This document shows positions 11,090-36,848 of a stretch of DNA of 48,906 bases, piece after piece. The translations under genes and the position numbers were made by a program. The notes beneath the pieces are model-generated. The model saw nothing but the letters and a program-made list of their open reading frames with translations. It did no database searches and was not told where the DNA came from. The stretch is from Candidatus Saccharimonadota bacterium (GTDB lineage Bacteria > Patescibacteriota > Saccharimonadia > Saccharimonadales > UBA4665). Each line of letters opens with the position of its first letter. Positions within the stretch are counted from its first letter, which is position 1. The stretch is taken from positions 1 to 48,906 of the forward strand of contig DAHWID010000002.1 of the NCBI GenBank assembly GCA_027345405.1, written 5' to 3'.

Positions 11090-11135
11090 CTATACACATT
11101 TTTGTCGTATACACGTGATGGATAGTTGCTTGTTT

Positions 11136-11168
11136 TCACATACAAATAATGCTAATATTTGTATGTGA
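11136..11168. promoter_or_regulatory. Operator-like 13-bp palindrome over the fic promoter and start
   Basis: Arms 11136-11148 (TCACATACAAATA) and 11156-11168 are exact reverse complements with a 7-base spacer. A possible promoter (TTGTTT at 11130, 17-base spacer, TAATAT at 11153-11158) lies inside, and its predicted start is the GTG at 11165, which is itself in the right arm. A protein bound here would block transcription. The Fic protein's own C-terminal winged-helix-like part is the natural candidate (inference). Confidence 0.6.
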
Positions 11169-12277
11169 CAAATTTTGACCCTAATATTCCGTATAACGAC
11201 TTGGCACTTCTGCCCCCTAAGCAGGAGTTCTATAATTTAGCTACTTATAAAAAAGTTGTTAAGGCTACAGACGAATTATCTAAACTTAATGGGTTGCTAC
11301 TGTCTACGTGGGATAACGTAACGGCAACCATGAATATGTTTAACCCTTTCTTTGCGCCTGAGGCAGAAGCTAGTTCAAAGGTTGAAAATATCGTAACTAC
11401 TACAGAGGAAATTTTATTAGCGGGAGTATTAGATGAATCACAACAAAGTCCTGCACAAAAAGAAGGTAGGGCATACGTAAATGCACTTGCCAAAGGTGCA
11501 TCAATTATAGAGTCAAAGAAGCCCCTAACTACAAACTCATTTTTAGATATTCAAGATAAACTTGCCGTAAAAGCTAAAGGCATTAGAAAAACTCCCGGAA
11601 CACAACTTAAGGATGATAGAACGGGAAAAGTATTCTACACACCCCCAGAGGGTGAGAGCAGAATTAGAGATCTATTACAGAATCTTGAAAACTTTATAAA
11701 TATTCCGAATGATGAAATTGACCCTCTTATTAATATGGCACTGATGCACTACCAATTTGAAGCCATTCACCCTTTTTACGATGGTAACGGTAGGACTGGG
11801 AGAATATTAATGCCTTTGTACCTGGAATTATCACATAAGACTAGATATCCTTTCCTATTCATTAGTGGATATATTCTTAAGCACAAACCTGAATACTATT
11901 CAAAGCTACGTAATGTCACTGAAAAGGGAGAATGGTTACAATGGGTAGACTTCATTCTGGAAGGCGCAACAGCCACCGCAAAAAGGATGTCGGATACTCT
12001 TATTCAGATTAAAGAACAAAAAGACCAAGCCAGTAGCTTACTTGGCGAAAATATAGGGACTAGGCACAATGATTTGGTCCAGTTTGTTTTTAACGAGCCC
12101 ATCTTTAATCGGTTGCAGTTGGCCGATTCTTTGGGTATTCATAACCACACGTCTACTAAATATGCAGAGTATTTAGTAGAAACAAAAATAGTTACAAAAC
12201 AAAAATTTCATAAGCAGTGGGTATATATAAACGTTGGGCTAGTAAGACTTTTACAAAAATATGCGCAATGGGACTGA
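11165..12277 (+). CDS. Class II Fic adenylyltransferase with C-terminal wHTH-like domain
   Basis: The 370-residue protein has the Fic core motif HPFYDGNGRTGR (about residues 202-213), which transfers AMP (or another nucleotide part) from a nucleotide to a target hydroxyl. An N-terminal S-x-x-x-E-N motif (SSKVEN, about residues 70-75) matches the autoinhibitory helix of class II Fic proteins. The C-terminus (LADSLGIHNHTSTKYAEYLVETKI) looks like a winged helix, common in this class. The start is GTG at 11165, since the track's TTG lies in the -10 region. It is located in the island behind tRNA-Leu. The target protein is unknown. Confidence 0.93.
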   Translation: MTNFDPNIPYNDLALLPPKQEFYNLATYKKVVKATDELSKLNGLLLSTWDNVTATMNMFNPFFAPEAEASSKVENIVTTTEEILLAGVLDESQQSPAQKEGRAYVNALAKGASIIESKKPLTTNSFLDIQDKLAVKAKGIRKTPGTQLKDDRTGKVFYTPPEGESRIRDLLQNLENFINIPNDEIDPLINMALMHYQFEAIHPFYDGNGRTGRILMPLYLELSHKTRYPFLFISGYILKHKPEYYSKLRNVTEKGEWLQWVDFILEGATATAKRMSDTLIQIKEQKDQASSLLGENIGTRHNDLVQFVFNEPIFNRLQLADSLGIHNHTSTKYAEYLVETKIVTKQKFHKQWVYINVGLVRLLQKYAQWD

Positions 12278-27240: not shown

Positions 27241-27280
27241 TTAAAAGGACCTTGTTATATTTTAAACAAAGTCCTTTTAA
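27241..27280 (-). terminator. Hairpin terminator after the RRM gene
   Basis: Arms 27241-27256 and 27265-27280 pair over 16 positions with one mismatch (core TTAAAAGGAC/GTCCTTTTAA), with an 8-base loop. It lies between the RRM stop and the pgl start, and on the minus strand the 3' arm ends in CCTTTTAA. It would separate the RRM transcript from the pentose phosphate operon. Confidence 0.7.
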
Positions 27281-35024: not shown

Positions 35025-35033
35025 TGATATAAT
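35025..35033 (+). promoter_or_regulatory. Extended -10 promoter TGATATAAT
   Basis: TGATATAAT at 35025-35033 is an exact extended -10 element with no recognisable -35 box 17 bases upstream. The predicted start lies about three bases before ATG 35043, so the mRNA is essentially leaderless. Confidence 0.6.
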
Positions 35034-35042
35034 GACTATAAT

Positions 35043-35372
35043 ATGCGGGCAAATTATTTGGATAGTTTCATTAGAGATATTTTTAGCATTAGTCCGCGCT
35101 ATATTGACATATTTGGTAATTATTTACCTGGCATGGCTGGCACATCAATTGCTACACAGGGTGCCATAACTTCACAAACTGATGTGATCCGTGCTTTGCG
35201 TCATGATGTTTCCTCTTTAGTGAAGCTTAAAGCATCCGCGAACTCGCAAAAAGTAATTGCCTGTTCAAAGAATATCGAAGGTAGACTGTTATTGCTACAA
35301 ACATTGGGTGTGATCAGTGATAAGCGTTGCACTAAATTGATTGATGAACTTAATAGGGTTACATACCTCTAA
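35043..35372 (+). CDS. Small helical protein upstream of the sigma factor
   Basis: The 109-residue protein has a hydrophobic N-terminal part (FIRDIFSISPRYIDIFGNYLPGM) and a mostly helical rest with Ala, Lys and Ser (LRHDVSSLVKLKASA, RLLLLQTLGVISDK). No clear TM helix. No family recognised. It ends 10 bases before the hairpin that covers the sigma-factor start. If both are on one transcript, the hairpin separates them as an attenuator. A regulator of the sigma factor is possible from position, but nothing in the sequence shows it. Confidence 0.6.
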   Translation: MRANYLDSFIRDIFSISPRYIDIFGNYLPGMAGTSIATQGAITSQTDVIRALRHDVSSLVKLKASANSQKVIACSKNIEGRLLLLQTLGVISDKRCTKLIDELNRVTYL

Positions 35373-35382
35373 AATTTATTTC

Positions 35383-35425
35383 TACTTGAGTTAATTGAAA
35401 AAATACTTTTCAATTAACTCAAGTA
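35383..35425 (+). promoter_or_regulatory. Perfect 19-bp inverted repeat ending on the sigma-factor start codon
   Basis: Arms 35383-35401 and 35407-35425 are exact reverse complements with a 5-base spacer. The last base of the right arm is the A of ATG 35425, so in RNA the stem would run up to the start codon. The stem is AU-rich and no Shine-Dalgarno is visible. As DNA it covers a possible weak promoter (TTGAGT at 35386, 17 bases, TTCAAT at 35409). RNA switch, operator or attenuator are the options. Confidence 0.75.
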
Positions 35426-36633
35426 TGACCAACATGGAACTGCCGCCAGCTGAAGCTACGGGTGAACTAATTAGTAATGACAATCAAGAGCAGTTTAGGG
35501 ACACTCTAGATCGGATTGTCGGGCTCTACTCTAGGGATCCAGAGGTACTTGAAGATGTAGAACGAGCCAAATCTAAACCACGTGAACCGGGTAACGCCGA
35601 GGATCTACTGCAGGAATTTCTTAAAGACATCGGCCAGTACAGCATTCCTAGCGAACAAGAGCAGAAGACTTTAGCCTACACCATACGTAATGGGGTCGAA
35701 GCTCAAAGGCAGTTGGATCAAGATGCTTCTCGCGTGGAGTTAATACGAGCTGTTAAAGCCGCAGTTAGTGCTAGACAAATGATGATCTTACGTAATGCTA
35801 AACTGGTTGTTTCCTGGGCAAACAAGATTTATGTTAGCAATGACAATTACTCAAAGCTGGATCGAATCGAAGAAGGTATGATTGGTTTAGCTCATGCGGT
35901 AGCGCTGTTTGATCCGGATCGGGGATATAAATTTAGCACATATGCCTCTTGGTGGATTCGTCAAGCTATTCAAAGAGGTCGACCGATTCACGAGCTGGTT
36001 AACTTACCGTCGCATGAAATGGATAGGCTCGTCAATCTAGAAGCAGTCAGAGAAGAGCTAGAGCGAACACTAAAAAGGAAACCGACAGAAGAGGAACTTA
36101 TAACCAAGTACAACTCTCTGTATTCAAACGGCAAGCAGTCTAAAGGTATGGAAAGACCCGAGTTCACAATGTTAACCAATCTGGCTGGGAGCCCGGTGTC
36201 ACTCAATACCCGGGCCGACTTTAAAGACGGAGAGGGCGAAGAGCTCGGGGATAGCATTATCGATAAAACTAAATTGCCGCCATTTTCAGACGAAATTGAA
36301 AAGTTTGAGTGGAAAGATGAATTAAGTGATTTGCTGGTCCGAGCAAACTTAAGTGCGTTTGAGCGGCTTATAATTTCATTGCGCTTTGGTTTGCTCTTGA
36401 TAAAACCAGACGAGTCTTTGGCTGTAGTCCCTGATGAATACTTGGATTTGTCGGGGCGTAGTTTTAAGCAGCCAGACTACGATGAGATAATTGCTGCAAT
36501 CGCTGATTCTCAGAGTGGAATCGTTTCTATTGCCAAATGCGCGCAGTTGATTGGCATTAGACCTCACAATATCTCACTGATTGTTGAACGAGTTATTAAG
36601 AAAATTCGAGCTTACAACTCCTTGGCTGCTTAG
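35425..36633 (+). CDS. Divergent sigma-70 family RNA polymerase sigma factor
   Basis: The 402-residue protein has region 1.2 (DLLQEFLKDIGQYSIPSEQEQ), a well-kept region 2 (RNAKLVVSWANKIYV, FDPDRGYKFSTYASWWIRQAI) that binds core enzyme and the -10 box, and region 3 (LPSHEMDRLVNLEAVREEL). Region 4 is odd: a long insertion (LLIKPDESLAVVPDEYLDLSG), then a helix-turn-helix SIAKCAQLIGIRPHNISLIVERVIKKIRAY that departs from the RpoD consensus for -35 contact. The track starts at TTG 35395 inside the hairpin; ATG 35425 is preferred. It is probably not the main vegetative factor. Confidence 0.88.
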   Translation: MTNMELPPAEATGELISNDNQEQFRDTLDRIVGLYSRDPEVLEDVERAKSKPREPGNAEDLLQEFLKDIGQYSIPSEQEQKTLAYTIRNGVEAQRQLDQDASRVELIRAVKAAVSARQMMILRNAKLVVSWANKIYVSNDNYSKLDRIEEGMIGLAHAVALFDPDRGYKFSTYASWWIRQAIQRGRPIHELVNLPSHEMDRLVNLEAVREELERTLKRKPTEEELITKYNSLYSNGKQSKGMERPEFTMLTNLAGSPVSLNTRADFKDGEGEELGDSIIDKTKLPPFSDEIEKFEWKDELSDLLVRANLSAFERLIISLRFGLLLIKPDESLAVVPDEYLDLSGRSFKQPDYDEIIAAIADSQSGIVSIAKCAQLIGIRPHNISLIVERVIKKIRAYNSLAA

Positions 36634-36703: not shown

Positions 36704-36733
36704 TTGATCAGTACTTTTTAAATTACTGATCAA
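36704..36733. terminator. Inverted repeat between the sigma gene and the 41-aa ORF
   Basis: TTGATCAGTA (36704-36713) and TACTGATCAA (36724-36733) are exact complements with a 10-base AT-rich loop. It covers the stop codon of the minus-strand small ORF and lies about 70 bases past the sigma-factor stop. A two-way terminator is plausible, though no T run follows. Confidence 0.45.
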
Positions 36734-36848
36734 GAAATTCGATCAGCGCCTTCTTGACTATAACTTTAGAGAAATATGCCTGCCCTAGAGGAAAGCACAT
36801 CAAGTAATACCAGAACTTTTCAGCTTTTGTTAATTTATGTTTGGCCAC
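36723..36848 (-). CDS. 41-residue ORF missed by the track
   Basis: The start is GTG at 36846-36848, with AGAGGAGA ending five bases upstream, a strong ribosome site. The frame reads VAKHKLTKAEKFWYYLMC, then FPLGQAYFSKVIVKKALIEF, and ends with TAA. Composition is typical of a real short protein: basic N-terminus, an aromatic amphipathic middle, a Lys-rich helix. No family known to me. Small proteins with this look are common in CPR genomes. The rest of 36849-37140 shows no ORF that I support. Confidence 0.65.
   Translation of the reverse strand: MAKHKLTKAEKFWYYLMCFPLGQAYFSKVIVKKALIEFLDQ

Follow-up and report, generated by a model that had tools for sequence, protein, structure and literature searches.

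The start codon of an accessory sigma-70-type factor in the 48,906-nt stretch of DNA analyzed here (“the window”) is overlapped by a perfect 19-bp hairpin at positions 35383–35425, and this hairpin is real and probably regulatory. It is tentatively read, with a little less than even confidence, as a cis-acting RNA element that occludes the sigma AUG on a bicistronic mRNA, such that the sigma level would stay low until translation is coupled or the stem is cleaved. The evidence is confined to a single locus, seen in two species, and mechanisms of this class are familiar.

The hairpin lies on the + strand and comprises a left arm (35383–35401, TACTTGAGTTAATTGAAAA), a 5-nt loop (35402–35406, AATAC), and a right arm (35407–35425, TTTTCAATTAACTCAAGTA). 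When the arms were paired directly, all 19 of 19 positions were complementary, and the last base of the right arm, A35425, was the A of ATG 35425; an inverted repeat with exactly these arms, spacer, and end point had been described in an earlier note on this DNA. It exceeds in length every other perfect hairpin in the window and in ca. 331 kb of sampled sequence (261 kb from the same genome and 70 kb from a relative). For perfect arms of at least 19 nt with loops of 0–12 nt, the base composition gives an expectation of ca. 4e-5 occurrences per genome; with A+T set at 70%, the figure is still just 5e-4. The 19-bp repeat is far beyond chance. The fold z-score was -5.1 in context and -9.3 for the hairpin alone. 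A search of the 619-kb genome (35 contigs) for a second copy returned none, the nearest other sites having 3 mismatches in 17 bases. The genome appears to be a reduced one and may be that of a candidate-phyla-radiation bacterium. A repeat family or the end of a mobile element was ruled out, as there was no other copy in the genome or in viral contigs.

The ORF downstream of the hairpin (35425–36633, + strand; 402 aa from ATG 35425) was confirmed to encode a sigma factor, as the earlier note had stated. It matched Pfam Sigma70_r2 (E = 3.7e-14), and its closest solved relatives in the PDB were SigA/HrdB/RpoD, with SigA/RpoD matches down to 8e-24. Region 2 is clear and, with the RNA-polymerase-binding core, places the protein in the Sigma-70 family; regions 1.2 and 3 are weak. 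The matches end near residue 325, and the C-terminus looks by eye like a diverged region 4. The AlphaFold model was of low confidence (pLDDT 64). A separate sigma factor, presumably the housekeeping one, is encoded on another contig (C31) of the same genome. A close ortholog of the accessory factor was carried by two of the 19 genomes of the genus, this one included, so the description “global regulator” in the earlier note was too strong. Its start could be the in-frame ATG at 35434–35436 (+ strand), which lies 8 nt past the hairpin and is conserved in the relative described below, rather than ATG 35425; if translation began there, the exact overlap of hairpin and start would be coincidental. 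A coding explanation for the repeat, namely an N-terminal extension of the sigma factor from TTG 35395, was discarded: the frame is broken in the relative by a 1-nt deletion.

Upstream of the hairpin, which fills most of a 52-nt gap, is a 109-aa ORF (35043–35372) co-directional with the sigma gene (both +); its stop codon is located 10 nt before the left arm. No family match was found for this ORF among Pfam, NCBIfam, and PHROG profiles. Its AlphaFold model is mainly helical (pLDDT 78), and a fold search with that model gave no significant match. An anti-sigma role for the ORF was considered and found no backing in these profile and fold searches. The ORF belongs to a family of uncharacterized small helical proteins (with members at L121, L160, and L122) that share a conserved FGNxLPGMAGTS motif and adjoin different genes in different genomes.

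A TATAAT (35028–35033, + strand) is found 9 nt before the first ATG of the 109-aa ORF and is conserved in the relative; it is a probable -10 element for a leaderless or short-leader transcript that would span both genes. Start signals were sampled in the window and in loci L161–L172 of the same genome (G000). A Shine-Dalgarno-like motif preceded only 12–14% of the sampled genes, and TATAAT was enriched 12–16 nt before starts; on these patterns, leaderless or short-leader transcripts appear to be common in this genome. The sigma gene indeed has no Shine-Dalgarno, as noted earlier, yet this is uninformative because most genes of the genome are without one.

The folding of the RNA was modeled at several temperatures. 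The same structure was obtained over 4–65° C, with energies of -21.9 kcal/mol at 37° C and -10.4 kcal/mol at 65° C. In the model, the A of the AUG was ca. 93% paired at 37° C, the U was unpaired, and the G was partly paired; pairing of the A was 97% at 10° C and still 89% at 60° C. The start codon is thus held in a stable predicted stem, as is characteristic of start-codon-occluding hairpins. An occluding stem is physically sound. Two proposals of the earlier note fared differently. A temperature switch is not supported, and an RNA thermometer was rejected, the stem being fully formed at 65° C in the model; stress-gene RNA thermometers likewise have paired bases where translation starts, but they melt in a narrow range near the growth temperature. 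A ligand switch, or riboswitch, was also rejected: the element consists of a stem-loop alone and shows no sign of an aptamer domain, and an Rfam scan of the whole window returned only two tRNAs and no match at the hairpin. An intrinsic terminator was rejected as well. The stem is AT-rich, the next bases (TGACCAACAT) include no U-run, and the site was absent from a terminator scan. Start-codon occlusion by an RNA hairpin remains the best reading.

Further orthologous loci were sought in 19 genomes of the genus, 93 of the family, 60 relatives, genome contigs, and viral contigs, and only one, L039 (JAJYZG010000003.1), was recovered. The same genes are found there in the same order, the sigma factor (4001–5215 of L039) being 72% identical and the 109-aa ORF 87%. 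The intervening gap is 50 nt, and a hairpin (TACTTGAGTTATTTGAAGA AATAC ATTTCAATTAGCT-AAGTA) occupies the same place. Its left arm retains 17 of 19 bases and its loop is identical; the right arm differs by two substitutions and one deletion. The L039 hairpin carries two G-U wobbles, two mismatches, and one bulge, and its energy at 37° C is -9.5 kcal/mol (z = -3.1) vs. -21.9 kcal/mol in the window. The earlier note held that a relative with the protein but not the palindrome would count against its proposals; L039 retains the protein together with a hairpin that is weakened but not lost.

Over the 43 nt of the hairpin there are five differences from L039 (12%), compared to 56 of 162 at four-fold sites (35%); the binomial P of 6e-4 is nominal, as sites were treated as independent and the region was picked because of the hairpin. 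In the 10 nt just before the hairpin, five of 10 positions differ. Because the 43 nt changed less than synonymous sites, the hairpin sequence is probably constrained. Pairing was considered separately. No compensatory pairs were found between the two sequences, contrary to the stem changes that had been predicted. When the window hairpin was randomly mutated with four substitutions and one deletion, the energy was at or below that of L039 in 60–65% of trials. Pairing in L039 is thus no better than after equal changes placed at random, and the comparison gives no evidence of compensatory evolution or of selection on pairing.

This last result bears on the idea that the repeat is a mutational by-product, i.e. 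an imperfect repeat perfected by template switching in replication and devoid of any pairing function. Quasipalindrome correction is a known mutation type (PMC7202029, PMC3820800), and the corresponding repeat of the relative is imperfect, its pairing no better than that of random decay. However, a single correction event does not account for the five differences: arm positions 6, 9, and 19 would have to be corrected from the left arm, but positions 12 and 18 from the right arm. In addition, the hairpin sequence is more conserved than synonymous sites. This origin is considered very unlikely.

The main rival to occlusion in RNA is a DNA operator, in which a dimeric regulator, possibly an autoregulator, would bind the palindrome over an internal sigma promoter and the transcript would start in or just after the right arm. 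Perfect dyads by start codons are typical of operators, the genome has at least one operator-type dyad that is CIRCE-like, and a short-leader transcript would suit this genome. Consensus scanning for promoters listed no site at the hairpin. A matrix with values typical of E. coli sigma-70, not derived from this organism, gave TTGAAA-18-TCAAGT (35395–35424, + strand) as the best promoter-like site in the hairpin; it is weak, with 0.5% of window positions scoring as high. This site is not conserved in L039. There, another promoter-like sequence, TTTACT-17-TACATT, overlaps the hairpin with a score that only the top 0.1% of window positions reach, but a site of that quality would be expected by chance in ca. 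1 of 20 such 54-nt stretches. Its counterpart in the window scores far lower, and the two species do not share their best -10 candidates. The indel inside one arm in L039, the lack of a second site copy for a shared regulator, and the close spacing and common direction of the genes also speak against an operator. CIRCE palindromic operators resemble the present repeat in being perfect inverted repeats beside a gene. The repeat here differs from them in its unique sequence, longer arms, start-codon overlap, and want of a good promoter in the window species. On balance, an operator is judged unlikely. The CIRCE-like site is an inverted repeat, TTTAGCACTC-N9-GAGTGCTAAA, on contig C29 of the same genome (L166:12182–12210), which we take to be a CIRCE-type motif; its sequence suggests that heat-shock genes of this lineage are controlled by HrcA.

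The occluding-hairpin reading draws on several of the same observations. The 52-nt gap between co-directional ORFs, and the gene order and hairpin position shared with L039, argue for it, as do the improbability of the repeat by chance, the predicted pairing of the A of the AUG, the constraint on the hairpin sequence, the encoded RNase III, and the weakness of the window's promoter-like sites at the hairpin. In RNA, the L039 indel would be only a bulge, but in DNA it would displace half of a half-site. Each of the two transitions in L039 produces a G-U pair on the + strand, as a + strand RNA would tolerate; with a chance probability of ca. 1 in 4, this is a weak hint of RNA.

The following mechanism is envisioned. 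The 109-aa ORF and the sigma gene would be read as one transcript from a promoter before 35043. The RNA of the gap would fold into the 19-bp hairpin, with the A of the sigma AUG as its 3′ foot, and the stem, in a genome with little use of Shine-Dalgarno pairing, would block fresh ribosomes at the sigma start and keep the sigma level low. Release could occur by either of two routes: ribosomes might arrive from the 109-aa ORF, which stops 10 nt before the hairpin, or the stem might be opened or cut in response to some signal, e.g. by RNase III, a gene for which is present in the genome. Speculatively, the folded stem would bring the AUG within ca. 11 nt of the upstream stop and might help ribosomes restart. 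A strict form of this scheme, in which the structure alone exerts control and the sigma factor is made only by ribosomes that hop the stem, its AUG having been brought beside the preceding stop, or from messages with a cut stem, is thought improbable.

Both elements of the proposed occlusion mechanism have precedents: hairpins over downstream start codons are established in coupled operons (PMC12548453), and RNase III-mediated release is established for blocked mRNAs (PMC3386247). In the RNA-unfolding model of coupled operons (PMC12548453), as here, two co-directional genes lie close together and the start of the second is masked by a stable structure; low independent initiation is expected. 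The present case differs in that the upstream stop precedes the hairpin, so that a translating ribosome would not traverse the stem, and in that there is no Shine-Dalgarno and coupling is only proposed. A ribosome at the stop of the 109-aa ORF would touch only the foot of the hairpin, which argues against the RNA reading, and coupling is reported to be lower when a structure directly follows the stop codon (PMC12548453). The RNase III-activated leader of Staphylococcus aureus cspA (PMC3386247) likewise has a long hairpin near the start codon that hampers ribosome binding, and a message with a short leader or none could result from its cleavage, as is proposed here; it differs in having its own long leader and a Shine-Dalgarno, the present stem being intercistronic and only 19 bp.

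Alternatively, the hairpin could be an intercistronic processing or 3′-end element, a stability or cleavage site that ends the message of the 109-aa ORF, with its overlap of the ATG being incidental. Its location 10 nt after a stop codon, the presence of other long window hairpins just after stops (27241–27280 and 428–464), and the encoded RNase III fit such a role. This possibility is nonetheless regarded as quite unlikely: neither strand has a U-run after the stem, as a usual intrinsic terminator would, the site was absent from the terminator scan, and homologs of the 109-aa ORF in two other genomes (G008 and G105) have no obvious matching hairpin, as judged by eye, after the stop.

The control of rare accessory sigma factors in small-genome, regulator-poor bacteria is little known. 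A start-codon hairpin, if the occlusion reading is true, would be a simple protein-free gate, and the locus is well suited to testing how ribosomes initiate within operons when no Shine-Dalgarno assists them.

Two other features of the window were recorded. On the minus strand at 36721–36847 is a likely unlisted small gene of ca. 40 codons. Its start is preceded by a clear AGGAG, its DNA shows good conservation in L039, and the 3′ end of the gene is located inside a hairpin (36704–36733). A second start-codon palindrome (11133–11171; 16 pairs with one mismatch, loop of 7) overlaps the start codon, either TTG 11159 or GTG 11165, of a Fic-family gene downstream of an IS1595-type transposase gene; the one relative recovered (48%) is too distant for a comparison of the palindrome.
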